DNA of 64,000 nt, from assembly GCA_026874595.1 (NCBI GenBank), contig CM049307.1:93594330-93658329 (forward strand). Reading direction: 5' to 3'. Under the pieces are notes generated by a model. It was not told the DNA's origin. It searched no databases and worked only from the letters and a program-made list of their open reading frames with translations. Position 1 is the first letter of the stretch. Every line of letters begins with the position of its first letter. A program made the translations under genes and the position numbers. Source of the DNA: Sipunculus nudus. Taxonomy: Eukaryota; Annelida; Sipuncula; Golfingiida; Sipunculidae. Of this stretch, positions 1 to 62,472 are shown piece after piece.

Positions 1-839
1 AGAATATGACCTATTAGAACCATTCTTGGTAGCACTTCCTTCTTGCAATCGTATAAAAAAGAGGGTTTAGACGTCAGAAAATAAATAAACATAGTTTGAA
101 ATTAATATACTGACAAACATTCATCAATATTAATTATTACCTTTACATACGCCAATGTAACAAGCAACCATTCCCAATTCAACTCCGATATAGATAAATA
201 CAAAAGTTATTTATTTTCCGAAAAAAAATATTATGTTAGGCCTGTAAAGTGTAGTTTGAAACACATGAAACAAGTCGTGAACTGATGTTTTCGGACTTTT
301 TAGTTGTAGAAGCGGCTGGAGCTTACGTCCTTCCGGGACCTTATAGAAAAGGTTTGGTCATGTTGTAAATAGCCTGGCAAGAATTAATTCTACACAGGCA
401 TAAATTCTCTTTTATTTTAATATAATACTATATGGACCCGTGGATGCTTCCGGTATCAATTTCTTTTTATCAATGTGCTTCACATGATATAAAGATTACT
501 TGTGCTGGAATTCTCATGGAAACTCCTTCCCCAATTAATGACAGTACGCAAAGACAGGCAAACTATGCAATTCAACAAATCAAAGAGAGAAATGTTTTGA
601 AAAAAAAGTGGGGCATATCGGATCTACGAATTATTTAATTATTATGATAAAGGATATGAGTACAACATCATCTTTACTGGAGTGAAGGCAATAAAATATA
701 CCGAACGATTGCATAAAGCAGGCGTCTACCGAAACAGTAATTGGAATTTAATAATAAGACTATAGCAAAATAAAGTTTAAAAAAGATACTTTGTATAAAT
801 TTAAGCTCAGAGCACATCACGGAAAATGTTTAAGTTTTT

Positions 840-1800
840 TTATTACCTCTTTTTTTTGTAAACTACAATTATACCATCTGTATTAAGTTCCAAGAAATGA
901 CCAGTGCAACGCAACAAAGTTTGTACCTATATCATGTAATCCACGTCTGCCTTATTGTAAAGACCACCCAGTGCAGTGTCGTCTGCGTAATCGAACAGTT
1001 TCAATCTTTAGAAATGGCTCTGCATTCATTAGTGTGCTAGGTGAATAAAATGGTGAAAACACATCCCTGAGAAGCTCCTGTATTAGGCTGAATTTATCTT
1101 GAAATGACATTATTAAAAATGACAAACTGTCTTCTCTTTGTTTAAAAAATGTATCCAGACTATAATAAATTGATTAACATTCATACTCATTAGTTTCCTC
1201 AAAAGCACATGCGGTTGTATATTATTGAAAGCACTTGAACCGTCTATAAATAAGATGTATGCAAACTTGCGATTTCCCTTGCCATTTGATGTATCAAGAC
1301 ATTAAGGAAGGTCATGAGTGATGAGAATCGTCGGGTCTTCAACACAGAATTCTGTTTTTTTTAACTTATTTTCGAAAAATTCCTAAGAATAGCAGGGTGA
1401 AACCTGTGTGTCTCTGGTCTGAAATCATTTCATATATTGAGGATGGTGTTTTTTAAACAGTAAAATGATTTTAGAGGTTTTCAAAATGGTCATTACATAT
1501 CCTGTGAATAGTGAAGTCTGATATAATCGAGTATAAATTTGGGATTCAGAGCCAATTTCTTTCTACATATTTTGAAGATCTTTCCACCTAAGTGGTCCGG
1601 CCCAGTAGTTTTGCAAAAATTTACACTGTTAAAAACGTCTTGTGTGTTAATTTGCATACATGTATCCTATATTATATCAAGATCGTATAACAGTAGTGCA
1701 CACGTCTGGAAACTTGTGTTTAATAAATCGCCCATAAAACCCGTTCAGTCCAATGCGGTATTCCTACAGGTACTCTGATTCAGGTGAAATGGTTCTCTTA
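840..1800 (-). pseudogene. LINE reverse transcriptase, decayed (unit 1)
   Basis: Read on the minus strand this shows successive blocks of a non-LTR retrotransposon reverse transcriptase, broken by stops and frameshifts. In order: GPDHLGGKIFKI (about 1605-1565), a LKTSKIILLFKK block (about 1480-1440), FIDGSSAFNNIQPH (about 1255-1210), GASQGCVFTILFT followed by a stop (about 1080-1035), the catalytic box FDYADDTAL (YADD at 978-989) and LELNTDGIIVVYKKK (about 890-845). The order and spacing fit the Rex1/CR1-like group of LINEs; the clade name is an inference. It sits within the presumed intron downstream of PTS exon a. It is not functional. Confidence 0.82.
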
Positions 1801-1918
1801 AGATAGACAGTCAAGGTTTTAAACTTTTCTGATTTTGTATCATCAAGTTCTGTACTTTACGCTTATAGTTCTGTTCACCCCTACAGATACATTCCCTTAT
1901 CTCCCGTATTTTGCTTAC

Positions 1919-1978
1919 CAGTTGGTGCTAAAGTTCTGGTTGGAGCCATGGTTTGGGCCGATGTGGTCGTTTGGGCCA
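1919..1978 (-). CDS. PTS-rich mini-exon a, unit 1 (mucin-like gene)
   Basis: A 60-nt exon candidate on the minus strand. It is preceded by TATTCTTCAG and followed by a GTAAGC donor. It starts with two bases completing a codon and ends with one base of the next, so it is phase 1-1 and can be repeated or skipped without a frame shift. The complete codons give AQTTTSAQTMAPTRTLAPT, a Thr/Pro/Ala-rich stretch of the kind that carries O-glycans in secreted mucin-like proteins (inference). It is the most diverged of the three exon types. The LINE remnant begins about 100 bases into the intron that follows. Confidence 0.62.
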
Positions 1979-2689
1979 CTGAAGAATAATATATATTTGT
2001 TAATAATCCTGTTTTATTGGATGCAATGCAAACCAATCAAGAATTAAACTAATTTTTCAAATTGCCTTTGCTTTCTCCTTCCACAGAATAGAATATTCAA
2101 TCTTTACTTGCTGCGGTTCCTATTTTAGTGCTCGCTGGCGTATCCATACATTAATAATTTACTAGCAACTTGCGTGAAAAAACACGGTAGGAGAGGTGTT
2201 TCAAAGCAAAATTTTCTGTACATTTCATTTAAACTCCATTTTTGGGATAGAAGATTACTGACATAAGGTAGGCCAGCGGGCATGAAATGCATGATAATCT
2301 AACTTTTAGCATCCATAAGGATGCTCGCGAGGATCATATAAAGCTTTCTAAAATTAATGTCACCAAACACATCTTCAAATGGGAAAAGTGGTACCCCTGT
2401 GGACAAATGTTAAAATTATTAAAAATTTCACTATTAAATTAAATATTTTTTATGGTGTCCACAACACTTGTGAAGAACTGGCATGGCCGTTTTTTTTATA
2501 AATATTTGCATGGTTGTTCGACTTCTGTATTAACTATGCTACAAACACAATGGATTGCCAATGACCTCCATGATCTTATTATTTTTTGTTATTCTTGTAT
2601 ACCACATATTAAGTACGTTCAAAGGCACTTTATATAAACGAAATCATAGAAAGAATATACCTAGAACGGATACCAAAAAAGACGGGGGA

Positions 2690-3175
2690 AATACTAGAAT
2701 TAAGACACATTGTTGTGTGCTAAAAATAAAGGTTTCTTAAAAGTGTCAACAGAACTAGAGTCTCTGACATTGGATGGTAGGTTTGTTCCACAGACTAGAT
2801 CGCTCCAACAAAAACAGCTATTGCCATTAATAGCAGTTCTAACACGAGGGGAGACCAGAGTGAGAGAGTTTTGTCACCTGAGCTTTCTGGTTGGAGAATA
2901 CATCCTGCATTTTACGAACATATCCTGGGGCCTGGCCATTGGGCCTTATAAGTACATAACAGTATCTTAAAGTCAAGTCTGCTGAGAATAGGAAACCAAT
3001 ACAAGTCCTTCAGAACTAGAGTAATGTGACTATGACGTGATTCTCTACTGATAATTCTGGCTGTTGTATTCTGAACGCCTTGCATTTTATTAATCAATGT
3101 GTTTGGCACTCCGTGCAAAAACAAATTACAATTATCCAACTTGGATGTTACAAGTGAAAGAAATAAACGTTTTGA
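2690..3175 (-). pseudogene. Second LINE C-terminal fragment (unit 1)
   Basis: The minus strand encodes SLVTSKLDNCNLFLHGVPNT, then GVQNTTARIISRESRHSHIT, VLKDLYWFPI and DFKILLCTYKA, the typical thumb region of L2/CR1-type LINE reverse transcriptases. After a stop, another frame gives NLPSNVRDSSSVDTFKK, the usual end of these proteins. The frame changes show it is a dead fragment. It lies between PTS exons a and b, within a presumed intron. Confidence 0.8.
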
Positions 3176-3950
3176 TTAGAGCATTATATATTTAATTTTG
3201 CATGTGATATTTCTAATTTTATTTTCTCCGTTAAATAGTGTTGCTGATTGGATTTTCGTTTCATTCCATTTCATTTTTCTTTAGTTCTAGGACCATTGTG
3301 TAGTTTTATATAAACTATAGGGACTATTCCAGACACTAAATGTATGTGGAATAAACGATTCCGAGAAAAGACATGTCATACATCTGAAATAATCTAAATC
3401 ATGACTGTTTCCTAGAGGAGACTGCACACGTTTTGTGAATAAGTCTGGGGACATACTGTGCCGAAAACTGTGCAGCAAGTCTATTGATCATTTTATATAA
3501 CATTGTCAATATGGGTTGTTCTCTACAGACCTACTTTTACTCCCATCCAAATTCATTATAAATTTCCCGATCACTGGATTTTTATGTTACCCGGTAACAA
3601 CCCTGGTTGCATAAGACTGAATCATGTCCAATGTATTTGAATATGTCTCTTTGACATACGTTCATATGACACTTCCATCATCTAATATAGCCGATCAAAG
3701 GATTTATTTATTACCTTTAACATTAGCCTATCAAGTGGGTACTTTAATTTCTTGAATATATCAATTATATTTTATGCTTTTTTGCATACGTCTGAAAAGT
3801 GACAGGACAATTGGGAAAAATAGCTTTAGGTTTTGCCGGAATAAACACAACAAGCCACTGATCTTCCTCCGGGGTAGATTCTATCATCGACCATTGACCT
3901 GAACTAGAGAGTGCTTCACTTATGCTTAATACGACATGTATTTTGCTTAC

Positions 3951-4010
3951 CAGTTGGTGCTGGAGATGTGGTTGGAGTCATGGTGGGGGCCGGTGTGGTC
4001 GTTGGGGCCA
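3951..4010 (-). CDS. PTS-rich mini-exon b, unit 1 (mucin-like gene)
   Basis: A 60-nt phase 1-1 exon candidate, the most regular of the three. Complete codons give APTTTPAPTMTPTTSPAPT, almost entirely Thr, Pro, Ala and Ser. The acceptor side is ATATTCTTCAG and the donor is GTAAGC. The intron flanks on both sides (about 100 bases before and 250 after in plus-strand order) resemble those of exons a and c, so exon plus flanks were duplicated together long before the large tandem array formed. Product: part of a secreted or surface mucin-like protein (inference). Confidence 0.68.
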
Positions 4011-4534
4011 CTGAAGAATATTATACATGAAATCATGTTTTATTGAATACAATGTCAACCAATAATTAATAGAACTGATATTTTAAATGGCCTTTGATTT
4101 GTCCTTCCATAGAATAAGATGTTCAGTCCTTTCGAGCTGCGGTCCCCCGTTAAGTGCTCGTTGGCGTTGCAAGTCATTAATAATTTACTAGCAACTCGCA
4201 TGTGAAAAACCACAGCAGGACCAGTGTCTAAGCAATTTTGTTCACAAAATTTCATTAAAACTTCTAATTCCTTTATAGGAAATACATATATCCGGCAATC
4301 CAGCGAGCACAAATTGCCGAAATACTGTAAGGTTTTGCCGGATTAAATACTACCAGCCACTGAGTTGAACAATTTGATGAAAATTGTTATTAGAGAAACA
4401 TATCTCTACTGCTTTGAGGCAACTGCGAAATATATGCTGAATATTTCTGCATCCGAGGAAGACCCTAACATCTCCCATCGACATAAATCAGAGAATGTAA
4501 CACTAAAGCTTAATACGACAGGTAATTTGCTTAC

Positions 4535-4594
4535 CAGTTGGTGCTGGAGTTGTTGCTGGAGCCATGGCAGGGGGTGGTGTGGTCGTTGGATCCA
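4535..4594 (-). CDS. PTS-rich mini-exon c, unit 1 (mucin-like gene)
   Basis: A 60-nt phase 1-1 exon candidate with acceptor TATTCTTCAG and donor GTAAGC. Complete codons give DPTTTPPPAMAPATTPAPT. It lies about 520 bases from exon b within a related module. In transcript order (minus strand) exon c comes first, then b, then a. Confidence 0.66.
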
Positions 4595-5339
4595 CTGAAG
4601 AATAATATACAAGAAATCATGTTTTATTGAATACAATGCCAACCAATAATTTATAGAACTGATATTTCAAACCACAGAATAAAATATTCAGTCCCTCTTT
4701 TAGTGCTCGCTTGCGTTGCAAGTCATTAATAATTCTTAGCAACTCCCATGAAAAACCCCTACAGGATCAGGGTCAAAGCATTTTTTTTACAAAATTTAAT
4801 TTAAACTTTTGTAGGGGATTACAGAGATCAGGCCATCCAGGGAGCACAAAATGCATGATAATCACACCTTTAGTATCCAAAAGAATCCTCGGGACGATCA
4901 TATAACGCTTTCTAAAAAATGTTGCTATCAAACATAATCTCAAAGGAGAAAAGGTGTACTCCGTGGGGCAACTGTTGGCATTATTGTCATTTCAGCTTAA
5001 TAAAATATAGTCGTTTAAAAGGAAAACGTACAACGAAGATACTTGTGCCAAATTTGGAATTGCATCCACGTTAATAATTGGGGAAAAGAACACCATATGT
5101 ATCTATTAATAACATAGTTATTTCAACATTAAAATATAAATACAGCAACATTTCCTATTTCACGTGCTTCGATATCCGAAAAAACAGGCCGTAAATGACC
5201 ATAACCCTAGTATTGTAACGAACCAGATTACTTTTGGATTGAAACAATTTAAGACCTCACATGGAAACGTTTCTCAACAAATGATAAGACCCTATCGTCT
5301 CCTATTTGCCGAATCAGAGAATGTGCTAAAAACCTGTAA

Positions 5340-5410
5340 CCTGCTTACATGTTTTGGAGAAGTTGAGATCGGAGCAACGGTGGGGACATGGTTTTTACCA
5401 ATATTTGTCT
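5340..5410 (-). pseudogene. Decayed fourth PTS exon module
   Basis: The plus-strand sequence around 5315-5400 still resembles the flank and body of exon c: a CAGAGAATGT stretch, then GCTTAC where the donor should be, then a run aligned to the exon. On the minus strand the GTAAGC donor is kept, but the matching acceptor is gone and the reading is no longer Thr/Pro-rich. It lies in the 1.6 kb segment absent from units 2 and 3. Confidence 0.5.
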
Positions 5411-5794
5411 TATGCGATTGTTCTATAACACTGTTATACATAACAACAACCAGCATGCATATTGACCGATTGAACGTAAAAGAGAGGATAAGATAAGATA
5501 TATTTATAAAACCCATATGAAATACAGTATTTGTTTTGCTTAGGACATACACAAAACTAAATCACATAATCGTGACTAGATTTTAAGTACTTGCACTCAC
5601 AGCTCTAAAATGTCTATTGTATCATGTAATAGGAAAAGGTACATCCGATTGCATACGTTAACTAGTTTTACATGCTACTGAGCAAAGTCTCTTCTCAGAT
5701 AGCAGCATTTCATAATAAACATGCAACGAATGAGAGGTATCATTCTGTATTACCTAGCTTTTTTAAAAAACGCTTTACTCGCTACTATATTAAA

Positions 5795-6060
5795 TCAATC
5801 CACAGCAGACCCAATAGTCTGAGCTATCCGTTTTACGCTTTCTAGATGAGACTTGTCAACAGAGGATGCCCTTTTGTACCAAACAATGATACCAAATATT
5901 GCAACACTTTCAATGACAGAAGAATAAAACAATCTTAAAGTATTGTTATCTACACCAATATATTTCAGTCTCCTTAAGAAAAAGAGCCGTTTATCTGCCT
6001 TCATAATTTGTTCATCAATATTATCAGACCATTTGAGATCATCCTGAATAATTGTACCAT
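5795..6060 (-). pseudogene. LINE reverse transcriptase C-terminal piece (unit 1 only)
   Basis: The minus strand reads GTIIQDDLKWSDNIDEQIMK, then LFFLRRLKYIG, LFYSSVIESV and IIVWYKRASS, the conserved C-terminal part of Rex1/CR1-like reverse transcriptases. It would continue the reverse transcriptase that begins in unit 2 (7385-8344), but about 1.25 kb of other sequence lies between. It is inside the 1.6 kb segment that units 2 and 3 have lost. Confidence 0.8.
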
Positions 6061-6398
6061 AGGCATTTATAATGATTTACAATCTTAAATTGAACATCGT
6101 CAATGCACGCTTTGTTGACTTCATTACATTCTAACCTGAAATTCACAAATAGAGCTCTCACATGAGTTCCAGACTCTTTACACTGGCTTAACAGGGTATA
6201 TCCTGATTAAGGTCGTGCAAGATAGATGGTATCTCTGTATTATTCTTTGTGTTGCACCGTCACCGTCAAGGAAATCAACTAACCTCTTACTGAAGCTGTG
6301 ATGGTTTCAAGGCCACCCTTTACTATTGTATTAGTAATTTGACTCCAGATTCTTTTCAATCTTATTTCTCAGACACTTTTACATTTCTGTATCAAGGA

Positions 6399-6545
6399 GT
6401 CCTAGGCTCTTTCAACCTGTTTCATTTCTTCCTTATTTGGAGACAATCGTAATCTGTGTTTTTCTCTAATTTTCAATTTCAATTCTGAAGTATCTACAGT
6501 TTGGAATTTGGATGAGTTGTAATCTCTTTTAATTGATTAATAATC
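6399..6545. other. Unassigned end of array unit
   Basis: A+T-rich sequence shared by all full units and joined directly to exon-c module sequence in units 2 and 3. No coding, RNA or repeat signature was recognised. The first 840 bases of each unit are likewise unassigned; short open frames there are not conserved in all units. Confidence 0.4.
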
Positions 6546-7384
6546 AGAATATGACCTATTAGAACCATTCTTGGTAGCACTTCCTTCTTGCAATCGTATA
6601 AAAAAGAGGGTTTAGACGTCAGAAAATAAATAAACATAGTTTGAAATTAATATACTGACAAACATTCATCAATATTAATTATTACCTTTACATACGCCAA
6701 TGTAACAAGCAACCATTCCCAATTCAACTCCGATATAGATAAATACAAAAGTTATTTATTTTCCGAAAAAAAATATTATGTTAGGCCTGTAAAGTGTAGT
6801 TTGAAACACATGAAACAAGTCGTGAACTGATGTTTTCGGACTTTTTAGTTGTAGAAGCGGCTGGAGCTTACGTCCTTCCGGGACCTTATAGAAAAGGTTT
6901 GGTCATGTTGTAAATAGCCTGGCAAGAATTAATTCTACACAGGCATAAATTCTCTTTTATTTTAATATAATACTATATGGACCCGTGGATGCTTCCGGTA
7001 TCAATTTCTTTTTATCAATGTGCTTCACATGATATAAAGATTACTTGTGCTGGAATTCTCATGGAAACTCCTTCCCCAATAATGACAGTACGCAAAGACA
7101 GGCAAACTATGCAATTCAACAAATCAAAGAGAGAAATGTTTTGAAAAAAAAGTGGGGCATATCGGATCTACGAATTATTTAATTATTATGATAAAGGATA
7201 TGAGTACAACATCATCTTTACTGGAGTGAAGGCAATAAAATATACCGAACGATTGCATAAAGCAGGCGTCTACCGAAACAGTAATTGGAATTTAATAATA
7301 AGACTATAGCAAAATAAAGTTTAAAAAAGATACTTTGTATAAATTTAAGCTCAGAGCACATCACGGAAAATGTTTAAGTTTTTT

Positions 7385-8344
7385 TATTACCTCTTTTTTT
7401 TGTAAACTACAATTATACCATCTGTATTAAGTTCCAAGAAATGACCAGTGCAACGCAACAAAGTTTGTACCTATATCATGTAATCCACGTCTGCCTTATT
7501 GTAAAGACCACCCAGTGCAGTGTCGTCTGCGTAATCGAACAGTTTCAATCTTTAGAAATGGCTCTGCATTCATTAGTGTGCTAGGTGAATAAAATGGTGA
7601 AAACACATCCCTGAGAAGCTCCTGTATTAGGCTGAATTTATCTTGAAATGACATTATTAAAAATGACAAACTGTCTTCTCTTTGTTTAAAAAATGTATCC
7701 AGACTATAATAAATTGATTAACATTCATACTCATTAGTTTCCTCAAAAGCACATGCGGTTGTATATTATTGAAAGCACTTGAACCGTCTATAAATAAGAT
7801 GTATGCAAACTTGCGATTTCCCTTGCCATTTGATGTATCAAGACATTAAGGAAGGTCATGAGTGATGAGAATCGTCGGGTCTTCAACACAGAATTCTGTT
7901 TTTTTTAACTTATTTTCGAAAAATTCCTAAGAATAGCAGGGTGAAACCTGTGTGTCTCTGGTCTGAAATCATTTCATATATTGAGGATGGTGTTTTTTAA
8001 ACAGTAAAATGATTTTAGAGGTTTTCAAAATGGTCATTACATATCCTGTGAATAGTGAAGTCTGATATAATCGAGTATAAATTTGGGATTCAGAGCCAAT
8101 TTCTTTCTACATATTTTGAAGATCTTTCCACCTAAGTGGTCCGGCCCAGTAGTTTTGCAAAAATTTACACTGTTAAAAACGTCTTGTGTGTTAATTTGCA
8201 TACATGTATCCTATATTATATCAAGATCGTATAACAGTAGTGCACACGTCTGGAAACTTGTGTTTAATAAATCGCCCATAAAACCCGTTCAGTCCAATGC
8301 GGTATTCCTACAGGTACTCTGATTCAGGTGAAATGGTTCTCTTA
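7385..8344 (-). pseudogene. LINE reverse transcriptase, decayed (unit 2)
   Basis: Same decayed reverse transcriptase as in unit 1, with the YADD box near 7523-7534. It was copied as part of the large tandem unit rather than inserted independently, since breaks and flanks are shared. Confidence 0.82.
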
Positions 8345-8462
8345 AGATAGACAGTCAAGGTTTTAAACTTTTCTGATTTTGTATCATCAAGTTCTGTACT
8401 TTACGCTTATAGTTCTGTTCACCCCTACAGATACATTCCCTTATCTCCCGTATTTTGCTTAC

Positions 8463-8522
8463 CAGTTGGTGCTAAAGTTCTGGTTGGAGCCATGGTTTGG
8501 GCCGATGTGGTCGTTTGGGCCA
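8463..8522 (-). CDS. PTS-rich mini-exon a, unit 2
   Basis: Copy of exon a with identical splice borders, phase and encoded peptide, produced by the large tandem duplication. Confidence 0.6.
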
Positions 8523-9233
8523 CTGAAGAATAATATATATTTGTTAATAATCCTGTTTTATTGGATGCAATGCAAACCAATCAAGAATTAAACTAATTTT
8601 TCAAATTGCCTTTGCTTTCTCCTTCCACAGAATAGAATATTCAATCTTTACTTGCTGCGGTTCCTATTTTAGTGCTCGCTGGCGTATCCATACATTAATA
8701 ATTTACCAGCAACTTGCGTGAAAAAACACGGTAGGAGAGGTGTTTCAAAGCAAAATTTTCTGTACATTTCATTTAAACTCCATTTTTGGGATAGAAGATT
8801 ACTGACATAAGGTAGGCCAGCGGGCATGAAATGCATGATAATCTAACTTTTAGCATCCATAAGGATGCTCGCGAGGATCATATAAAGCTTTCTAAAATTA
8901 ATGTCACCAAACACATCTTCAAATGGGAAAAGTGGTACCCCTGTGGACAAATGTTAAAATTATTAAAAATTTCACTATTAAATTAAATATTTTTTATGGT
9001 GTCCACAACACTTGTGAAGAACTGGCATGGCCGTTTTTTTTATAAATATTTGCATGGTTGTTCGACTTCTGTATTAACTATGCTACAAACACAATGGATT
9101 GCCAATGACCTCCATGATCTTATTATTTTTTGTTATTCTTGTATACCACATATTAAGTACGTTCAAAGGCACTTTATATAAACGAAATCATAGAAAGAAT
9201 ATACCTAGAACGGATACCAAAAAAGACGGGGGA

Positions 9234-9719
9234 AATACTAGAATTAAGACACATTGTTGTGTGCTAAAAATAAAGGTTTCTTAAAAGTGTCAACTGAACT
9301 AGAGTCTCTGACATTGGATGGTAGGTTTGTTCCACAGACTAGATCGCTCCAACAAAAACAGCTATTGCCATTAATAGCAGTTCTAACACGAGGGGAGACC
9401 AGAGTGAGAGAGTTTTGTCACCTGAGCTTTCTGGTTGGAGAATACATCCTGCATTTTACGAACATATCCTGGGGCCTGGCCATTGGGCCTTATAAGTACA
9501 TAACAGTATCTTAAAGTCAAGTCTGCTGAGAATAGGAAACCAATACAAGTCCTTCAGAACTAGAGTAATGTGACTATGACGTGATTCTCTACTGATAATT
9601 CTGGCTGTTGTATTCTGAACGCCTTGCATTTTATTAATCAATGTGTTTGGCACTCCGTGCAAAAACAAATTACAATTATCCAACTTGGATGTTACAAGTG
9701 AAAGAAATAAACGTTTTGA
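9234..9719 (-). pseudogene. Second LINE C-terminal fragment (unit 2)
   Basis: Copy of the L2/CR1-like fragment of unit 1, carried by the tandem duplication. It has the same breaks. Confidence 0.8.
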
Positions 9720-10494
9720 TTAGAGCATTATATATTTAATTTTGCATGTGATATTTCTAATTTTATTTTCTCCGTTAAATAGTGTTGCTGATTGGATTTT
9801 CGTTTCATTCCATTTCATTTTTCTTTAGTTCTAGGACCATTGTGTAGTTTTATATAAACTATAGGGACTATTCCAGACACTAAATGTATGTGGAATAAAC
9901 GATTCCGAGAAAAGACATGTCATACATCTGAAATAATCTAAATCATGACTGTTTCCTAGAGGAGACTGCACACGTTTTGTGAATAAGTCTGGGGACATAC
10001 TGTGCCGAAAACTGTGCAGCAAGTCTATTGATCATTTTATATAACATTGTCAATATGGGTTGTTCTCTACAGACCTACTTTTACTCCCATCCAAATTCAT
10101 TATAAATTTCCCGATCACTGGATTTTTATGTTACCCGGTAACAACCCTGGTTGCATAAGACTGAATCATGTCCAATGTATTTGAATATGTCTCTTTGACA
10201 TACGTTCATATGACACTTCCATCATCTAATATAGCCGATCAAAGGATTTATTTATTACCTTTAACATTAGCCTATCAAGTGGGTACTTTAATTTCTTGAA
10301 TATATCAATTATATTTTATGCTTTTTTGCATACGTCTGAAAAGTGACAGGACAATTGGGAAAAATAGCTTTAGGTTTTGCCGGAATAAACACAACAAGCC
10401 ACTGATCTTCCTCCGGGGTAGATTCTATCATCGACCATTGACCTGAACTAGAGAGTACTTCACTTATGCTTAATACGACATGTATTTTGCTTAC

Positions 10495-10554
10495 CAGTTG
10501 GTGCTGGAGATGTGGTTGGAGTCATGGTGGGGGCCGGTGTGGTCGTTGGGGCCA
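10495..10554 (-). CDS. PTS-rich mini-exon b, unit 2
   Basis: Copy of exon b; 60 nt, phase 1-1, with the same GTAAGC donor and TTCTTCAG acceptor. The encoded peptide is unchanged. Confidence 0.66.
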
Positions 10555-11078
10555 CTGAAGAATATTATACATGAAATCATGTTTTATTGAATACAATGTC
10601 AACCAATAATTAATAGAACTGATATTTTAAATGGCCTTTGATTTGTCCTTCCATAGAATAAGATGTTCAGTCCTTTCGAGCTGCGGTCCCCCGTTAAGTG
10701 CTCGTTGGCGTTGCAAGTCATTAATAATTTACTAGCAACTCGCATGTGAAAAACCACAGCAGGACCAGTGTCTAAGCAATTTTGTTCACAAAATTTCATT
10801 AAAACTTCTAATTCCTTTATAGGAAATACATATATCCGGCAATCCAGCGAGCACAAATTGCCGAAATACTGTAAGATTTTGCCGGATTAAATACTACCAG
10901 CCACTGAGTTGAACAATTTGATGAAAATTGTTATAAGAGAAACATATCTCTACTGCTTTGAGGCAACTGCGAAATATATGCTGAATATTTCTGCATCCGA
11001 GGAAGACCCTAACATCTCCCATCGACATAAATCAGAGAATGTAACACTAAAGCTTAATACGACAGGTAATTTGCTTAC

Positions 11079-11138
11079 CAGTTGGTGCTGGAGTTGTTGC
11101 TGGAGCCATGGCAGGGGGTGGTGTGGTCGTTGGATCCA
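11079..11138 (-). CDS. PTS-rich mini-exon c, unit 2
   Basis: Copy of exon c with intact splice borders and phase. The deletion junction of this unit lies about 205 bases upstream on the minus strand, outside the exon. Confidence 0.64.
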
Positions 11139-12329
11139 CTGAAGAATAATATACAAGAAATCATGTTTTATTGAATACAATGCCAACCAATAATTTATAG
11201 AACTGATATTTCAAACCACAGAATAAAATATTCAGTCCCTCTTTTAGTGCCCGATTGCGTGGCAAGTCATTAATAATTCTTAGCAACTCCCATGAAAAAC
11301 CCCCACAGGATCAGGGTCAAAGCATTTTTTTTACAAAATTTAAGTCCTAGGCTCTTTCAACCTGTTTCATTTCTTCCTTATTTGGAGACAATCGTAATCT
11401 GTGTTTTTCTCTAATTTTCAATTTCAATTCTGAAGTATCTACAGTTTGGAATTTGGATGAGTTGTAATCTCTTTTAATTGATTAATAATCAGAATATGAC
11501 CTATTAGAACCATTCTTGGTAGCACTTCCTTCTTGCAATCGTATAAAAAAGAGGGTTTAGACGTCAGAAAATAAATAAACATAGTTTGAAATTAATATAC
11601 TGACAAACATTCATCAATATTAATTATTACCTTTACATACGCCAATGTAACAAGCAACCATTCCCAATTCAACTCCGATATAGATAAATACAAAAGTTAT
11701 TTTTTTTCCGAAAAAAATATTATGTTAGGCCTGTAAAGTGTAGTTTGAAACACATGAAACAAGTCGTGAACTGATGTTTTCGGACTTTTTAGTTGTAGAA
11801 GCGGCTGGAGCTTACGTCCTTCCGGGACCTTATAGAAAAGGTTTGGTCATGTTGTAAATAGCCTGGCAAGAATTAATTCTACACAGGCATAAATTCTCTT
11901 TTGTTTTAATATAATACTATATGGACCCGTGGATGCTTCCGGTATCAATTTCTTTTTATCAATGTGCTTCACATGATATAAAGATTACTTGTGCTGGAAT
12001 TCTCATGGAAACTCCTTCCCCAATTAATGACAGTACGCAAAGACAGGCAAACTATGCAATTCAACAAATCAAAGAGAGAAATGTTTTGAAAAAAAAGTGG
12101 GGCATATCGGATCTACGAATTATTTAATTATTATGATAAAGAATATGAGTACAACATCATCTTTACTGGAGTGAAGGCAATAAAATATACCGAACGATTG
12201 CATAAAGCAGGCGTCTACCGAAACAGTAATTGGAATTTAATAATAAGACTATAGCAAAATAAAGTTTAAAAAAGATACTTTGTATAAATTTAAGCTCAGA
12301 GCACATCACGGAAAATGTTTAAGTTTTTT

Positions 12330-13290
12330 TATTACCTCTTTTTTTTGTAAACTACAATTATACCATCTGTATTAAGTTCCAAGAAATGACCAGTGCAATG
12401 CAACAAAGTTTGTACCTATATCATGTAATCCACGTCTGCCTTATTGTAAAGACCACCCAGTGCAGTGTCGTCTGCGTAATCGAACAGTTTCAATCTTTAG
12501 AAATGGCTCTGCATTCATTAGTGTGCTAGGTGAATAAAATGGTGAAAACACATCCCTGAGAAGCTCCTGTATTAGGCTGAATTTATCTTGAAATGACATT
12601 ATTAAAAATGACAAACTGTCTTCTCTTTGTTTAAAAAATGTATCCAGACTATAATAAATTGATTAACATTCATACTCATTAGTTTCCTCAAAAGCACATG
12701 CGGTTGTATATTTTTGAAAGCACTTGAACCGTCTATAAATAAGATGTATGCAAACTTGCGATTTCCCTTGCCATTTGATGTATCAAGACATTAAGGAAGG
12801 TCATGAGTGATGAGAATCGTCGGGTCTTCAACACAGAATTCTGTTTTTTTTTAACTTATTTTCGAAAAATTCCTAAGAATAGCAGGGTGAAACCTGTGTG
12901 TCTCTGGTCTGAAATCATTTCATATATTGAGGATGGTGTTTTTTAAACAGTAAAATGATTTTAGAGGTTTTCAAAATGGTCATTACATATCCTGTGAATA
13001 GTGAAGTCTGATATAATCGAGTATAAATTTGGGATTCAGAGCCAATTTCTTTCTACATATTTTGAAGATCTTTCCACCTAAGTGGTCCGGCCCAGTAGTT
13101 TTGCAAAAATTTACACTGTTAAAAACGTCTTGTGTGTTAATTTGCATACATGTATCCTATATTATATCAAGATCGTATAACAGTAGTGCACACGTCTGGA
13201 AACTTGTGTTTAATAAATCGCCCATAAAACCCGTTCAGTCCAATGCGGTATTCCTACAGGTACTCTGATTCAGGTGAAATGGTTCTCTTA
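12330..13290 (-). pseudogene. LINE reverse transcriptase, decayed (unit 3)
   Basis: Third copy of the same decayed reverse transcriptase, with the same blocks in the same order and the same breaks as units 1 and 2. Confidence 0.82.
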
Positions 13291-13408
13291 AGATAGACAG
13301 TCAAGGTTTTAAACTTTTCTGATTTTGTATCATCAAGTTCTGTACTTTACGCTTATAGTTCTGTTCACCCCTACAGATACATTCCCTTATCTCCCGTATT
13401 TTGCTTAC

Positions 13409-13468
13409 CAGTTGGTGCTAAAGTTCTGGTTGGAGCCATGGTTTGGGCCGATGTGGTCGTTTGGGCCA
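13409..13468 (-). CDS. PTS-rich mini-exon a, unit 3
   Basis: Third copy of exon a, unchanged in frame and splice borders. Confidence 0.6.
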
Positions 13469-14179
13469 CTGAAGAATAATATATATTTGTTAATAATCCT
13501 GTTTTATTGGATGCAATGCAAACCAATCAAGAATTAAACTAATTTTTCAAATTGCCTTTGCTTTCTCCTTCCACAGAATAGAATATTCAATCTTTACTTG
13601 CTGCGGTTCCTATTTTAGTGCTCGCTGGCGTATCCATACATTAATAATTTACTAGCAACTTGCGTGAAAAAACACGGTAGGAGAGGTGTTTCAAAGCAAA
13701 ATTTTCTGTACATTTCATTTAAACTCCATTTTTGGGATAGAAGATTACTGACATAAGGTAGGCCAGCGGGCATGAAATGCATGATAATCTAACTTTTAGC
13801 ATCCATAAGGATGCTCGCGAGGATCATATAAAGCTTTCTAAAATTAATGTCACCAAACACATCTTCAAATGGGAAAAGTGGTACCCCTGTGGACAAATGT
13901 TAAAATTATTAAAAATTTCACTATTAAATTAAATATTTTTTATGGTGTCCACAACACTTGTGAAGAACTGGCATGGCCGTTTTTTTTATAAATATTTGCA
14001 TGGTTGTTCGACTTCTGTATTAACTATGCTACAAACACAATGGATTGCCAATGACCTCCATGATCTTATTATTTTTTGTTATTCTTGTATACCACATATT
14101 AAGTACGTTCAAAGGCACTTTATATAAACGAAATCATAGAAAGAATATACCTAGAACGGATACCAAAAAAGACGGGGGA

Positions 14180-14665
14180 AATACTAGAATTAAGACACAT
14201 TGTTGTGTGCTAAAAATAAAGGTTTCTTAAAAGTGTCAACTGAACTAGAGTCTCTGACATTGGATGGTAGGTTTGTTCCACAGACTAGATCGCTCCAACA
14301 AAAACAGCTATTGCCATTAATAGCAGTTCTAACACGAGGGGAGACCAGAGTGAGAGAGTTTTGTCACCTGAGCTTTCTGGTTGGAGAATACATCCTGCAT
14401 TTTACGAACATATCCTGGGGCCTGGCCATTGGGCCTTATAAGTACATAACAGTATCTTAAAGTCAAGTCTGCTGAGAATAGGAAACCAATACAAGTCCTT
14501 CAGAACTAGAGTAATGTGACTATGACGTGATTCTCTACTGATAATTCTGGCTGTTGTATTCTGAACGCCTTGCATTTTATTAATCAATGTGTTTGGCACT
14601 CCGTGCAAAAACAAATTACAATTATCCAACTTGGATGTTACAAGTGAAAGAAATAAACGTTTTGA
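14180..14665 (-). pseudogene. Second LINE C-terminal fragment (unit 3)
   Basis: Third copy of the L2/CR1-like fragment, with the same breaks as in units 1 and 2. Confidence 0.8.
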
Positions 14666-15440
14666 TTAGAGCATTATATATTTAATTTTGCATGTGATAT
14701 TTCTAATTTTATTTTCTCCGTTAAATAGTGTTGCTGATTGGATTTTCGTTTCATTCCATTTCATTTTTCTTTAGTTCTAGGACCATTGTGTAGTTTTATA
14801 TAAACTATAGGGACTATTCCAGACACTAAATGTATGTGGAATAAACGATTCCGAGAAAAGACATGTCATACATCTGAAATAATCTAAATCATGACCGTTT
14901 CCTAGAGGAGACTGCACACGTTTTGTGAATAAGTCTGGGGACATACTGTGCCGAAAACTGTGCAGCAAGTCTATTGATCATTTTATATAACATTGTCAAT
15001 ATGGGTTGTTCTCTACAGACCTACTTTTACATCCATCCAAATTCATTATAAATTTCCCGATCACTGGATTTTTATGTTACCCGGTAACAACCCTGGTTGC
15101 ATAAGACTGAATCATGTCCAGTGTATTTGAATATGTCTCTTTGACATACGTTCATATGACACTTCCATCATCTAATATAGCCGATCAAAGGATTTATTTA
15201 TTACCTTTAACATTAGCCTATCAAGTGGGTACTTTAATTTCTTGAATATATCAATTATATTTTATGCTTTTTTGCATACGTCTGAAAAGTGACAGGACAA
15301 TTGGGAAAAATAGCTTTAGGTTTTGCCGGAATAAACACAACAAGCCACTGATCTTCCTCCGGGGTAGATTCTATCATCGACCATTGACCTGAACTAGAGA
15401 GTGCTTCACTTATGCTTAATACGACATGTATTTTGCTTAC

Positions 15441-15500
15441 CAGTTGGTGCTGGAGATGTGGTTGGAGTCATGGTGGGGGCCGGTGTGGTCGTTGGGGCCA
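15441..15500 (-). CDS. PTS-rich mini-exon b, unit 3
   Basis: Third copy of exon b, unchanged in frame and splice borders. Confidence 0.66.
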
Positions 15501-16024
15501 CTGAAGAATATTATACATGAAATCATGTTTTATTGAATACAATGTCAACCAATAATTAATAGAACTGATATTTTAAATGGCCTTTGATTTGTCCTTCCAT
15601 AGAATAAGATGTTCAGTCCTTTCGAGCTGCGGTCCCCCGTTAAGTGCTCGTTGGCGTTGCAAGTCATTAATAATTTACTAGCAACTCGCATGTGAAAAAC
15701 CACAGCAGGACCAGTGTCTAAGCAATTTTGTTCACAAAATTTCATTAAAACTTCTAATTCCTTTATAGGAAATACATATATCCGGCAATCCAGCGAGCAC
15801 AAATTGCCGAAATACTGTAAGATTTTGCCGGATTAAATACTACCAGCCACTGAGTTGAACAATTTGATGAAAATTGTTATAAGAGAAACATATCTCTACT
15901 GCTTTGAGGCAACTGCGAAATATATGCTGAATATTTCTGCATCCGAGGAAGACCCTAACATCTCCCATCGACATAAATCAGAGAATGTAACACTAAAGCT
16001 TAATACGACAGGTAATTTGCTTAC

Positions 16025-16084
16025 CAGTTGGTGCTGGAGTTGTTGCTGGAGCCATGGCAGGGGGTGGTGTGGTCGTTGGATCCA
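16025..16084 (-). CDS. PTS-rich mini-exon c, unit 3
   Basis: Third copy of exon c, the most upstream PTS exon visible in the array in transcript order. The nine exons together would encode about 180 residues of PTS-rich sequence. Confidence 0.64.
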
Positions 16085-16437
16085 CTGAAGAATAATATAC
16101 AAGAAATCATGTTTTATTGAATACAATGCCAACCAATAATTTATAGAACTGATATTTCAAACCACAGAATAAAATATTCAGTCCCTCTTTTAGTGCCCGA
16201 TTGCGTTGCAAGTCATTAATAATTCTTAGCAACTCCCATGAAAAACCCCCACAGGATCAGGGTCAAAGCATTTTTTTTTACAAAATTTAAGTCCTAGGCT
16301 CTTTCAACCTGTTTCATTTCTTCCTTATTTGGAGACAATCGTAATCTGTGTTTTTCTCTAATTTTCAATTTCAATTCTGAAGTATCTACAGTTTGGAATT
16401 TGGATGAGTTGTAATCTCTTTTAATTGATTAATAATC

Positions 16438-18339
16438 AGAATATGACCTATTAGAACCATTCTTGGTAGCACTTCCTTCTTGCAATCGTATAAAAAAGAG
16501 GGTTTAGACGTCAGAAAATAAATAAACATAGTTTGAAATTAATATACTGACAAACATTCATCAATATTAATTATTACCTTTACATACGCCAATGTAACAA
16601 GCAACCATTCCCAATTCAACTCCGATATAGATAAATACAAAAGTTATTTTTTTTCCGAAAAAAATATTATGTTAGGCCTGTAAAGTGTAGTTTGAAACAC
16701 ATGAAACAAGTCGTGAACTGATGTTTTCGGACTTTTTAGTTGTAGAAGCGGCTGGAGCTTACGTCCTTCCGGGACCTTATAGAAAAGGTTTGGTCATGTT
16801 GTAAATAGCCTGGCAAGAATTAATTCTACACAGGCATAAATTCTCTTTTGTTTTAATATACTATATGGACCCGTGGATGCTTCCGGTATCAATTTCTTTT
16901 TATCAATGTGCTTCACATGATATAAAGATTACTTGTGCTGGAATTCTCATGGAAACTCCTTCCCCAATTAATGACAGTACGCAAAGACAGGCAAACTATG
17001 CAATTCAACAAATCAAAGAGAGAAATGTTTTGAAAAAAAAGTGGGGCATATCGGATCTACGAATTATTTAATTATTATGATAAAGAATATGAGTACAACA
17101 TCATCTTTACTGGAGTGAAGGCAATAAAATATACCGAACGATTGCATAAAGCAGGCGTCTACCGAAACAGTAATTGGAATTTAATAATAAGACTATAGCA
17201 AAATAAAGTTTAAAAAAGATACTTTGTATAAATTTAAGCTCAGAGCACATCACGGAAAATGTTTAAGTTTTTTTATTACCTCTTTTTTTTTGTAAACTAC
17301 AATTATACCATCTGTATTAAGTTCCAAGAAATGACCAGTGCAACGCAACAAAGTTTGTACCTATATCATGTAATCCACGTCTGCCTTATTGTAAAGACCA
17401 CCCAGTGCAGTGTCGTCTGCGTAATCGAACAGTTTCAATCTTTATAAATGGCTCTGCATTCATTAGTGTGCTAGGTGAATAAAATGGTGAAAACACATCC
17501 CTGAGAAGCTCCTGTATTAGGCTGAATTTATATTGAAATGACATTATTAAAAATGACAAACTGTCTTCTCTTTGTTTAAAAAATGTATCCAGACTATAAT
17601 AAATTGATTAACATTCATACTCATTAGTTTCCTCAAAAGCACATGCGGTTGTATATTATTGAAAGCACTTGAACCGTCTATAAATAAGATGTATGCAAAC
17701 TTGCGATTTCCCTTGCCATTTGATGTATCAAGGAAGATTAAGGAAGGTCATGAGTGATGAGAATCGTCGGGTCTTCAACACAGAATTCTGGTTTTTTTAA
17801 CTTATTTTCGAAAAATTCCTAAGAATAGCAGGGTGAAACCTGTGTGTCTCTGGTCTGAAATCATTTCATATATTGAGGATGGTGTTTTTTAAACAGTAAA
17901 ATGATTTTAGAGGTTTTCAAAATGGTCATTACATATCCTGTGAATAGTGAAGTCTGATATAATCGAGTATAAATTTGGGATTCAGAGCCAATTTCTTTCT
18001 ACATATTTTGAAGATCTTTCCACCTAAGTGGTCCGGCCCAGTAGTTTTGCAAAAATTTACACTGTTAAAAACGTCTTGTGTGTTAATTTGCATACATGTA
18101 TCCTATATTATATCAAGATCGTATAACAGTAGTGCACACGTCTGGAAACTTGTGTTTAATAAATCGCCCATAAAACCCGTTCAGTCCAATGCGGTATTCC
18201 TACAGGTACTCTGATTCAGGTGAAATGGTTCTCTTAAGATAGACAGTCAAGGTTTTAAACTTTTCTGATTTTGTATCATCAAGTTCTGTACTTTACGCTT
18301 ATAGTTCTGTTCACCCCTACAGATACATTCCCTTATCTC
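16438..18339. repeat. Tandem array unit 4 (partial, end of array)
   Basis: Partial copy matching positions 1 to about 1900 of unit 1. Identity stops abruptly at 18339: units 1-3 continue into the flank of PTS exon a, while this copy continues into unique sequence encoding the endonuclease part of the same LINE. The breakpoint therefore lies inside a LINE. No PTS exon is present in this partial copy. Confidence 0.93.
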
Positions 18340-21045: not shown

Positions 21046-21138
21046 CTGAACCTCCCGAACCAGGTAAACCGGAACCAGCTGGATCGGTGCCGCTGCCAAC
21101 GCTGCTTAAGCCACTTGAATCAAAACTGCTTCCGTGCA
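21046..21138 (-). CDS. Ser/Gly-rich exon candidate, phase 1-1
   Basis: A 93-nt exon candidate on the minus strand. The acceptor is GCAATTTAG, followed by two bases, 30 full codons and one base, then a GTTGGT donor, weaker than consensus. The codons give a Ser/Gly-rich, low-complexity peptide beginning HGSSFDSSGLSS and ending PAGSGLPGSGGS, with some Asp and Pro. Phase is 1-1, as in the nine PTS exons 5 kb downstream on the same strand, so it could be an upstream exon of the same mucin-like or linker-rich secreted protein. Local G+C is well above its surroundings. No family assignment is possible. Confidence 0.5.
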
Positions 21139-25239: not shown

Positions 25240-27015
25240 TAATCTTACTTTCAGTGGCGAGGAATATCTTCGAAGTCAAAGTATCATTCAATAACCCAAT
25301 ATTTACGGGTGATAAACAAAGGCAGTTACCAATACAATGGTTTCTCTAATTCGAAGGCATGGTATTTTCCATTGAATCCCTCCTATATGAAAATGTGTAC
25401 CTGATTAACCAAAATCCATGCTATCGCTTAGTTTGTCAATGAAATAGCGTTATTTGTGTTAGATGTATTCCTTTTTGAAACTGAAAGGAGGCAATTGCTT
25501 TTCATATTTCAAACATATGTTCAATGAATTGCATATAAAGAGTATGAACATTTTATCAATCAATAATATACCTAACGGTCTTATTAAAATATGTTTTATC
25601 TACTTTAATATCAAATAAAAAAAATAATGAAATATTATACACGGTATTATTATCATCAAAATCGCCCATATCTTAATAAAAAAATGTTCAAAATTCATAT
25701 GGCTCTATAAAGAGCACATTGTGTTAACCTGGTATAGTCATCTTTCTGATTATATACATGTTTTAGTACTTTTTATTAATTTTCACCTGTTTTTGTAACA
25801 TTCTGGAAAAAAAGCTAAAATATTGGAAGGTTATTTATTTTAAGCATCCAGTAACTGTAAGCAACATTTTACTGGACATATATTAAACTACATGACAATA
25901 TCTGAAAAACTTCTTTTCTTTTTCCTCTAATGTGTCTTTCTTGTTGAAAAATAGTTAACCCTTTATAAGCCTTCCTATTATAAATATTCATAGGGAAAAG
26001 AAAGTTAAAACCCAAATTTGTATTTCGCCAATACTATTGCCGTAATACAATGCTAACAATTATATAAAAATTAGTTTTTTCATAACATTTCAATACCGCG
26101 AAAAATGAAGGGACACATGATAGAAGCGCATATTGTTTTAATATGATTCTACAACTATGTGAAAATTATGGTAAAAATCCTAACTCATACATAGGCCCAG
26201 ATCACGGAACGAGAGTAATAACACCTGCATTCTAAATTATAAATGACAGCATCATTTTAACATTTGATCGGATATTAAAGTTGATCCAACGGATAACCTC
26301 AAATGAATGTTTAACCGTGAACATATTTACTTTGTAATTCCAGTCATTTATTAAAGCATTGTAACCTTATTTATCAGAGTATTTTCCTATGTAACACTGA
26401 AATAATTAGGGGGGGGGGGTTGTAAGATTTTGCTGGGGCTTTATATAGAAATCTACATTGATGCAATAACAATAATGCACTGTACACTTTTTGCAGCTAT
26501 CAACTGACAGTTGACAATCCTTACGTATAACAATCGTGTTTTCTATACTTCTGTATTCTTATCTGGCCAGTGTTTTACAATGTTGAAGCGAAACACCTAT
26601 TTCTTTATAATAAATATTTAATAATACATATTTAACAGGAATTTATCTAAATTTCCAACCTTGTGCTTGGATATACCACACTATGAGTAGGCTGAACAAA
26701 TGCATCTTGCTAAGATATTCTTCGAATACTACAAGGACAATGACATGAGGCAGCCAAGTAGTTTAAGTTATAGACATATCCAAACATGATTTCGCTCTAT
26801 ATTGCCACTGATGGTATCGGGTTTGGTTATATATTTTACCTGATTTACAAGTGCCAGGTGGATCCATATTGATACTATCTTTTCAGGAGCAATTTGTTTA
26901 TCTGCATAATAGTGATTTCGGTAGCAAAGGTTGATTTCACATAGAAATAGCATCAGCGTTTCCTTGCTGTTTACTTTACACATGGTAACCCTTATATACA
27001 GGTTACAAGTATTCA
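25240..27015. other. A+T-rich intergenic or intronic stretch
   Basis: No gene signature was recognised. Contains a short G run at about 26410. Confidence 0.5.
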
Positions 27016-43427: not shown

Positions 43428-43620
43428 TGTATGAATAGCTATGCTGGTTCATTGTTTCATAGATGGAAAGGGTATACACAGAAAAGTGGTTCACTGCCAG
43501 TGGGATTCGAACCCCCGATCTTCCGATTTCCGGTGCGGCTGCCTTAGTCCACTTGGCCATGACAGATTCCCAACCTCACTGTGTATTTGTACACTTTTAT
43601 AGGAACCAGCGAAGTGACGT
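43425..43620 (-). mobile_element. tRNA-derived SINE with (TA)n tail
   Basis: The minus strand contains TGGCCAAGTGGACTAAGGC, resembling an A box, and GGGGGTTCGAATCCCAC, a B box/T-arm, about 25 bases apart as in a tRNA. An unrelated body and a (TA)n tract follow. The acceptor ends do not pair convincingly, so it is a SINE head rather than a tRNA gene. Confidence 0.7.
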
Positions 43621-55781: not shown

Positions 55782-55999
55782 TTAACCGAGTGCTGCTTCA
55801 CACAGTGTTAACCTGCTCCAAATACAGCCACCATCATGCCATTCGCTGTTGGTATCATCCCAAAATATATATAAACAGTTCTGCGTATTGCCATCCGTCA
55901 CGTAGTAACCATCCGGCAGTGTGCCGTTTACCGGGGCTCCGCTTGATGCCCACCTCCACACTCCTTCTGTGCCTTCGTCGGTACCGGAACTCCAATATT
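55782..55999 (-). CDS. C-type lectin domain, last exon
   Basis: Second coding exon of a C-type lectin-like domain, ending in a stop codon (55784-55782). The acceptor is GATATATTCAG. The exon starts with two bases that complete the codon left open by the exon at 62263-62472, so the phases match. It reads YWSSGTDEGTEGVWRW, then SGAPVNGTLPDG, QNCLYIFWDD, EWHDGGC and LTLCEAALG. These are the second half of the fold: the region usually WIGL, the long loop, the central strand and three of the conserved cysteines. In the calcium site the usual EPN/QPD is LPD and the usual WND is WHD, so calcium-dependent sugar binding may be altered (inference). Secreted or surface lectin; ligand unknown. Confidence 0.85.
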
Positions 56000-56439
56000 C
56001 TGAATATATCAAGAGACCATGTCTTTGTATTGAGAATTTCTCATACATAACATTATATTAAGATATTATTAACATTAAATGTTAAAAAAGTATAAATTTA
56101 ACATAAGCGTTTAAGTCTAGGGGTGAGGGGGCGCTCACCTTTGATAAAAGAAAATGAAGTGGGTGTAATATTTATCATGAACTTTGTGTGAGTGTTGGAG
56201 GGGGGGGTTGACCAGTGAGTATCTACTGCGGACACCTGTCCTCCAACATCTCAACATTAATCTAATTTGTTAGATCAGTATATCAATCATGGTTTGTTAA
56301 TAATAATCATTAGAATTATGTATTAATCAATATTAATAAGTAATATTAATGATAGTAATAACGGTATACAATCAGATGTTATAAAATTAAAGGACATTTG
56401 TCAATATACATATACACATATTCATTCTACATAGATTAT

Positions 56440-62262: not shown

Positions 62263-62472
62263 GATTATACAGCAAGTTTATTGAATTCCTCATTACACTC
62301 GTGAGGTGGTTCATCTCATATTCGGTTTCTATAGCCACCAGGTCAGCTCCCCGGCTCGTGCAGTACTGACGTGCCTCATCCTTTGTTCTTTCCTGATCAA
62401 GTGCGAACTTGTAACATGATGATTTCGCTCCGTAGTCGAGTTTTAATCCGAATCCATCAGGACAAGTTACTT
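62263..62472 (-). CDS. C-type lectin domain, first domain exon
   Basis: 210-nt exon with acceptor ATCTTTTACAG and a perfect GTAAGT donor. After two bases it reads VTCPDGFGLKLDYGAKSSCY, then KFALDQERTKDEARQYC and GADLVAIETEYEMNHL, ending with one base that joins the exon at 55999. This is the first half of a long-form C-type lectin domain: two N-terminal cysteines, the helix-1 region with the YC cysteine, and the LV.IE.E motif. Together the exons give about 142 residues with all six cysteines of the long form. The exon begins in phase 1, so at least one more upstream exon is needed for the start and signal peptide. The intron between is 6.26 kb and holds several mobile elements. Confidence 0.88.

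Follow-up and report, generated by a model that had tools for sequence, protein, structure and literature searches.

We analysed a 64,000-nucleotide stretch of the Sipunculus nudus genome (the window), in which a first-pass annotation had described nine minus-strand stretches of 60 nt with an TTCTTCAG acceptor, a GTAAGC donor, phase 1-1 and three sequence types. Exact pattern matches bore out this description. A search for the borders TTCTTCAG...GTAAG returned exactly nine matches in the window, all on the minus strand, and each of these PTS exons was 60 nt long, in phase 1-1 and followed by GTAAGC. Types a, b and c had three window copies apiece; the copies within a type were identical, and the types shared 77-85% identity with one another. 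A fourth, diverged PTS exon (the type d relic) was found by alignment to a, b and c; it retained the GTAAGC donor, and the usual acceptor side was looked for there and not found. By eye, the relic resembled diverged exons at C2:93675581, C2:93767615 and C17:60711634. Each of the nine exons was recovered by the border match, an exon scan, a family search and the spliced model described below:

16025..16084, minus strand: PTS exon type a, unit 5
15441..15500, minus strand: PTS exon type b, unit 5
13409..13468, minus strand: PTS exon type c, unit 5
11079..11138, minus strand: PTS exon type a, unit 4
10495..10554, minus strand: PTS exon type b, unit 4
8463..8522, minus strand: PTS exon type c, unit 4
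4535..4594, minus strand: PTS exon type a, unit 3
3951..4010, minus strand: PTS exon type b, unit 3
1919..1978, minus strand: PTS exon type c, unit 3
5349..5393, minus strand: type d relic

The nine PTS exons were the top nine non-overlapping internal-exon candidates on the minus strand in a scan using generic splice sites and G+C content. The splice-site frequencies in the exon and signal scans were general-knowledge values, not derived from the S. nudus genome; an earlier exon scan with stricter cut-offs had missed the nine exons, and the cut-offs were then relaxed. Pro/Thr/Ser/Ala-rich candidates, defined by at least 70% of such residues and a length of at least 15 residues, numbered nine (three distinct) in the real strand and none in 60 simulated strands (first-order Markov).

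The whole predicted gene, gene A, was visible only when the genome was read beyond the window. In-silico splicing joined 21 exons, namely one signal-peptide-like, one Ser/Gly, 17 PTS and two lectin exons, into 1587 nt encoding 528 aa with a single, terminal stop. All internal borders were AG/GT, and every junction was in phase 1. The predicted exons besides the PTS exons are:

26660..26705, minus strand: first coding exon of gene A, signal-peptide-like (MHLFSLLIVWYIQAQ), donor GTTGGA, phase 1
21046..21138, minus strand: Ser/Gly-rich exon of gene A, 93 nt, phase 1-1
C2:93571946-93572155 and C2:93568617-93568834, minus strand, left of the window: lectin-domain exons of gene A

The first exon ranked third among six candidates in a scan for start, hydrophobicity and donor; an earlier, unrelaxed signal-peptide scan had given no candidate, and the scan was then relaxed. 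Its frame reads on into the following exons, and the 201 bp around it were 89.6% identical to a site in stretch L012 that likewise encodes a hydrophobic start, with no match in the other genome stretches examined (L009-L029 except L012). The Ser/Gly exon had a counterpart in L012 as well (72% over 364 bp, with length, phase and both splice sites kept), its only match among the genome stretches examined. Both of these exons have weak GTTGG donors and one counterpart apiece. The 17 PTS exons encode 20 residues each, and their 340 residues include 124 Thr, 85 Pro, 63 Ala and 11 Ser, counted from one residue inside the first PTS unit. In silico, a frame without a stop runs from the signal-peptide-like exon to the C-type lectin domain, in agreement with the earlier proposal that the stretches are spliced exons.

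Two further lectin-domain exons lie within the window and were assigned to a neighbouring paralogue, gene B:

62263..62472, minus strand: first lectin-domain exon of gene B, phase 1-1
55782..55999, minus strand: last lectin-domain exon of gene B, with the stop

The gene B domain matched Pfam Lectin_C (E=1.9e-12, 48.3 bits) and also solved C-type lectins. These exons were considered as part of gene A and rejected: their frame closes at 55782, which lies upstream of the tandem array described below, and the PTS exons fitting gene B lie right of the window. Among 20 peptides (mostly single ORFs) scanned against Pfam, the only matches besides lectin were RVT_1 and ALKBH8_N, which we read as retroelement remnants.

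A direct tandem array spans window positions 1-18339, with non-duplicated flank from 18340, and extends past the window's left edge. The whole array comprises five units (three of 6.54 kb and two of 4.95 kb) and holds 15 of the 17 PTS exons of gene A. The units are 99.2-99.8% identical overall and, counted by mismatches, 99.6-99.8% identical in the window; the junctions in the window lie at 1905/1906, 8449/8450 and 13395/13396:

13396..18339, minus strand: tandem unit 5, at the array's right edge, 4944 bp, without the 1.6-kb stretch
8450..13395, minus strand: tandem unit 4, 4946 bp, without the 1.6-kb stretch
1906..8449, minus strand: tandem unit 3, the long form, 6544 bp
1..1905, minus strand: tandem unit 2, upstream-intron end, the rest left of the window
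C2:93583145-93596234: tandem units 1 and 2
4800..6397, minus strand: 1598-bp stretch present in unit 3 and missing from units 4 and 5

The tandem duplication reported in the first-pass annotation held, but the array is larger than stated there (five units, and 17 PTS exons in gene A), and two of the five units lack 1.6 kb. At its left end, the 1598-bp stretch carries on the homology shared by the introns of types a, b and c. The leftmost unit continues into sequence homologous to the exon b intron, as the original edge of the array should, and this counts for duplication.

We collected 77 exon homologues from the genome without requiring splice sites or frame, and 64 of them combined AG and GT borders with a length of 60 nt and an uninterrupted frame. 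Four further homologues were 48-nt exons with intact borders and frame, taken from a separate list of 43 exons that was limited to open frames with a PTS-rich peptide and served no other purpose. Six of the 77 were damaged: one lacked the GT donor, two lacked the AG acceptor, one was 55 nt long, one was 57 nt long without an acceptor, and one had a stop and no borders. The length implied by the profile (60 nt for 75 of the 77) was not counted as evidence, because the ends were extrapolated and the 48-nt type was scored as 60. By position, lectin exons lay downstream on the same strand of at least 9 of the 11 PTS-exon clusters, among the lectin matches listed (150 of 1398 candidates scored). 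Among these matches, the clusters at C6:15.87 Mb and C2:92.60 Mb had no lectin exon and cluster I had its nearest one 43 kb off; in cluster F, one lectin match contained a stop. Of seven other clusters checked, six contained block duplications with PTS exons, and together with the five-unit array they support the earlier claim of growth by genomic duplication of exon sets. As predicted from the DNA, every repeat has a frame-neutral exon to itself, and the exons were duplicated along with their introns. The duplicated blocks vary in length among family members, and gene A is the longest case seen.

Coding constraint was then assessed in the family. Of the 60-mers bordered by AG and GT, 48 were distinct, and none of these had a stop in the coding frame; the same-strand +1 and +2 frames were interrupted in 7 and 1 of them, and the three antisense frames in 28, 17 and 5. 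Second codon positions were the least variable (0.148 vs 0.237 and 0.227; permutation p=0.023), and they were C in 798 of 960 codons, which keeps Thr, Pro, Ala or Ser. The family-wide pN/pS was 0.79, and the +1 frame gave an equal value. For the pairs a-b, a-c and b-c, exon identity was 83, 77 and 85% vs 84, 81 and 77% in the upstream intron; dN/dS among the three types was 0.64, 1.05 and 3.8, and the lack of indels in the exons was within chance (P 0.06-0.30). Types a, b and c alone, compared by identity, codon position, dN/dS and indels, showed no conservation above their own introns; what speaks for coding is the gene model together with the family as a whole.

The lectin part of gene A matched Pfam Lectin_C (PF00059; E=1.6e-11, 45.3 bits vs a curated cut-off of 22.6) and nothing else in Pfam; a peptide of the Ser/Gly exon and two PTS units gave no Pfam match. 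The classical sugar and calcium motifs of C-type lectins are EPN or QPD plus WND, and proteins can belong to the fold family without them. Reading the translation by eye, we found these motifs absent from the gene A domain, with APVNG and WHD about where they are expected. Because the motifs are lacking, classical calcium-dependent sugar binding seems unlikely and is not expected of the predicted protein. One published definition of a mucin asks for a PTS domain plus VWD or SEA (PMC1552070). Gene A has the PTS domain; its spliced frame consists of signal peptide, Ser/Gly, PTS and lectin only, and neither VWD nor SEA was matched in the selected ORFs scanned. As the frame ends in a lectin domain, gene A is predicted to encode a secreted C-type lectin whose stalk is mucin-like, rather than a mucin in the strict sense. 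This corrects the earlier reading of a mucin-like gene.

It is very probable, judging from the DNA itself, that a single minus-strand C-type lectin gene contains the nine stretches as coding exons and that its stalk was lengthened by block duplication. The predicted exons, frame, domain, array and family can all be read in the sequence. Gene A would be transcribed, and its predicted product would be secreted and carry a Thr/Pro/Ala-rich stalk of 340 residues, probably O-glycosylated and perhaps serving as a spacer, as well as a C-terminal lectin domain. The stalk would have grown in two steps. Old duplications of an exon with its intron would have given types a, b and c and the relic d; much later the block of three exons would itself have been duplicated recently, after which unequal crossing over or conversion may have produced the five near-identical units. 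Because the PTS exons are frame-neutral, their gain or loss would leave the lectin unharmed.

We consider it improbable that gene A is a dead copy whose exons persist as fossils of a family member that was once active. The three exon types do diverge as fast as the introns, and the relic d, the six damaged homologues elsewhere and the intronic retroelement remnants indicate that decay happens here, but all 21 exons retain their splice borders and one 528-residue frame, and the lectin domain lies above the Pfam cut-off. An assembly artefact, in which a single unit or two haplotypes were placed repeatedly in a row, is very improbable. The unit identity falls within the allelic range, and allelic difference in many marine animals spans such values. 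However, the window contains no N, the units have private differences (30 variable columns in their alignment, one at the alignment edge) and exon c has two forms among them, and 1.6 kb is missing from two units. Moreover, unique sequence lies at both outer edges, the left one as tandem duplication predicts, and the sister clusters show older, clearly distinct block duplications. The first-pass version, a mucin gene with the PTS region as its main product and no lectin part, would account for the PTS composition and for the arrangement of a single repeat in each exon known from chicken Muc13 (PMC1552070). It is extremely unlikely given that the frame continues through an entire C-type lectin domain to a stop, that lectin exons follow most clusters among the matches listed, and that the ORFs scanned gave no VWD or SEA match.

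The predicted lectin gene was compared with systems described in the literature. One PTS repeat per exon and amplification of exon plus intron are already known from Muc13 and SmPoMuc. In chicken Muc13, a 20-residue PTS repeat occurs at least 12 times, each copy in one of a set of nearly identical exons, and length change by recombination or splicing was proposed (PMC1552070). Gene A shares the 20-residue PTS repeat per exon; Muc13 has SEA, transmembrane and cytoplasmic parts, whereas gene A has a C-terminal C-type lectin domain, and its amplified unit contains three different exons and about 5-6.5 kb, mostly intron. In Schistosoma mansoni SmPoMuc, a 27 bp repeat exon lies within a genomic repeat of ~1 kb with copies >93% identical, repeat number differs among individuals, the genes form a multigene family, and unequal crossing over and conversion were proposed (PMC2576457). 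SmPoMuc resembles gene A in the amplification of a small repeat exon inside a genomic repeat and in the multigene family, but its unit is one exon of 9 residues, and the excerpted account names no lectin domain (PMC2576457). SmPoMuc was studied through transcripts and individuals, whereas gene A is known from the DNA of one genome. The neck of human CLEC4M (L-SIGN) is not known to be PTS-like. In this C-type lectin, the extracellular neck varies in length by tandem repeats that all lie inside exon 4 (PMC3261175, PMC11945572), whereas each gene A repeat is its own exon. A frog glue protein with duplicated exons (PMC11237159) was judged not close from its excerpt, and literature titles and abstract openings named no invertebrate lectin or mucin with such exons.

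Tentatively, this secreted-lectin family could tune the length of a glycosylated stalk by gain or loss of multi-exon blocks, and stalk length may be selected and copy-number-variable. If this is true, the five near-identical units of gene A would be free to recombine between individuals. One genome illustrates how copying of frame-neutral exons can extend a disordered, probably glycosylated stalk in 20-residue steps with the lectin domain untouched. The sister clusters, which have between 4 and 17 PTS exons in the DNA examined, offer a natural series for asking if stalk length is under selection and differs between individuals, and how block duplication compares with the coding minisatellites usual in mucins.

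A border search of the window recovered the nine 60-nt stretches exactly as described in the first-pass annotation. Each is a predicted PTS exon, a small phase-1 exon encoding a 20-residue Thr/Pro/Ala-rich repeat; in minus-strand reading order they run a, b, c, thrice over, and the three copies within each type are identical. A blind scan using splice sites and G+C ranked these stretches as the top nine non-overlapping minus-strand candidates, and 60 first-order Markov controls yielded no comparable Pro/Thr/Ser/Ala-rich candidate. The results showed that window 1-18339 is a tandem array with 99.6-99.8% identity between units, counted by mismatches, with unique sequence from 18340 at its right end. 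The boundary between units lies 13 bp past the exon c donor in every copy (1905/1906, 8449/8450 and 13395/13396). Types a, b and c are homologous over 400-600 bp, introns included, and alignment to them revealed a relic of a fourth exon near window 5349-5393 (minus strand). Two retroelement remnants were also observed in minus-strand introns: a weak RVT_1 match under the cut-off at window 1116-1301, and a Pfam ALKBH8_N match at 5798-6076, which we take to be part of a retroelement and not an alkB gene.

The window spans C2:93594330-93658329 in a genome of 1.43 Gb, and the array extends left past it by two units, giving five in total.

Units of the array on C2 (contig CM049307.1)
Unit 1: C2:93583145-93589689, 6545 bp
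Unit 2: ends at C2:93596234, 6545 bp
Unit 3: ends at C2:93602778, 6544 bp
Unit 4: ends at C2:93607724, 4946 bp
Unit 5: ends at C2:93612668, 4944 bp

In gene A, the predicted minus-strand gene holding these exons, the array is followed by two more PTS exons and then by two C-type lectin domain exons. Its upstream part, within the window, comprises a signal-peptide-like first exon and a Ser/Gly exon, each with one similar counterpart among the fetched stretches of this genome, in L012. In-silico splicing of 21 exons gave 1587 nt and 528 residues, with the sole stop terminal and all junctions in phase 1, and the lectin part matched Pfam Lectin_C (1.6e-11). Sequence outside the window thus settles the predicted model, and the mucin identity proposed initially gives way to a predicted stalked lectin, the 21-exon frame ending in the Lectin_C match.

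We then ran a profile of the 60-nt exon on 19 stretches (the window and L009-L026), with neither splice sites nor frame required. This gave 77 matches, 17 belonging to gene A; 64 of the 77 combined AG and GT borders with a length of 60 nt and an open frame. The remaining 13, sorted by eye, comprised four 48-nt exons with intact borders and frame, three diverged d-type exons and six damaged ones.

Damaged PTS exons
C17:18167493, GT absent
C2:97976318, AG absent
C2:97980738, AG absent
C2:93842662 (L019), 55 nt, both borders present; would break the frame if used
C6:15872411, 57 nt, AG absent
C6:15872052, stop, borders absent

None of the 48 distinct 60-mers with AG and GT carried an in-frame stop, whereas 7 had one when read in the +1 frame and 1 when read in the +2 frame. 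The second codon position was the least variable, the pattern that free interchange among Thr, Pro, Ala and Ser codons, which share a middle C, would produce. Selection on the exact exon sequence is weak, with a family pN/pS of 0.79 and an equal value in the +1 frame. Within the window alone, exons a, b and c were not more conserved than adjacent introns, and their freedom from indels was within chance expectation.

The PTS exons grouped into 11 clusters, nine of which have same-strand lectin exons downstream; counts are lower bounds because DNA was fetched in part for most clusters.

PTS clusters: matches, downstream same-strand lectin exons, internal duplication offsets
A: at least 17; lectin exons present
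B: at least 8 and one d-type; lectin exons present; 0.95 and 2.3 kb
C: at least 8 and one d-type; lectin exons present; 2.3 kb
D: at least 4; second lectin exon only
E: at least 4 (one broken); second lectin exon only
F: at least 6; C2:93.53-93.54 Mb; about 0.5 kb
G: at least 9; C2:97.996-98.000 Mb; 1.94 kb
H: at least 4; C17:18.151-18.155 Mb; 1.94 kb
I: at least 5; C17:60.781-60.794 Mb; 3.8 kb
J (C6:15.87 Mb): at least 6
K (C2:92.60 Mb): at least 4

The pairing of clusters with lectin exons is by position, the distance in cluster I being 43 kb. Clusters J and K had no lectin exon nearby among the matches listed (150 of 1398 candidates scored). Predicted gene A is one member of a gene family. 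A second predicted C-type lectin gene, gene B, ends within the window (55782-62472, minus strand), and eight PTS exons fitting it lie to the right, at C2:93664071-93674723, in DNA 85-96% identical to that of gene C (C2:93.75-93.77 Mb). Between its two lectin exons is a minisatellite (64 bp, about 8 copies, window 60893-61400). Also on the minus strand are an Rfam tRNA match close to TA repeats (43492-43566) and, by eye, a tRNA-like sequence that carries a SINE-like tail (56425-56718). The same pairing of a 60-nt with a 48-nt exon, in units of about 1.94 kb, recurs in the clusters at C2:97979394-97988311 and C17:18164711-18168480. The lectin matches downstream of these two clusters score equally, a hint of recent copying from one chromosome to another.

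Each exon of chicken Muc13 encodes one 20-residue PTS repeat, and its authors proposed recombination or splicing as length control (PMC1552070). Schistosoma mansoni SmPoMuc has a 27-bp exon within a repeated unit of ~1 kb, its repeat number varying between individuals (PMC2576457), and in human CLEC4M, a C-type lectin, the neck varies in length (PMC3261175, PMC11945572). Compared with these systems, predicted gene A joins a one-exon-per-repeat PTS stalk to a C-terminal lectin domain, and its amplified piece is a three-exon block. Titles and abstract openings of the literature searched named no lectin family with such exons, which is weak evidence given their partial coverage.

Types a, b, c and d arose by old duplications of a single exon with its intron, followed later by duplication of a block carrying a-d exons; no long homology was visible by eye at the ends of the duplicated block. 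In the leftmost unit, sequence past exon c still matches the exon b intron, as required if this unit retains the original edge. Two of the five units are without a 1.6-kb stretch. Since the homology shared by the introns of a, b and c runs on into this stretch, absence of the stretch is read as a deletion in one unit, after which the shortened unit would have been copied. The units are nearly identical, which points to recent copying, conversion or unequal crossing over, each of which would fit. Internal duplication was checked in seven other clusters (B, C, F, G, H, part of I, and K). Blocks with PTS exons were duplicated at 85-98% identity in six of the seven, and cluster K showed no internal duplication at the cut-off used. 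Together with the five-unit array, these blocks bear out the growth by exon-set duplication suggested by the first-pass annotation. Because the offsets differ between clusters, several separate duplication events are likely, of which one may be common to B and C and another to G and H.
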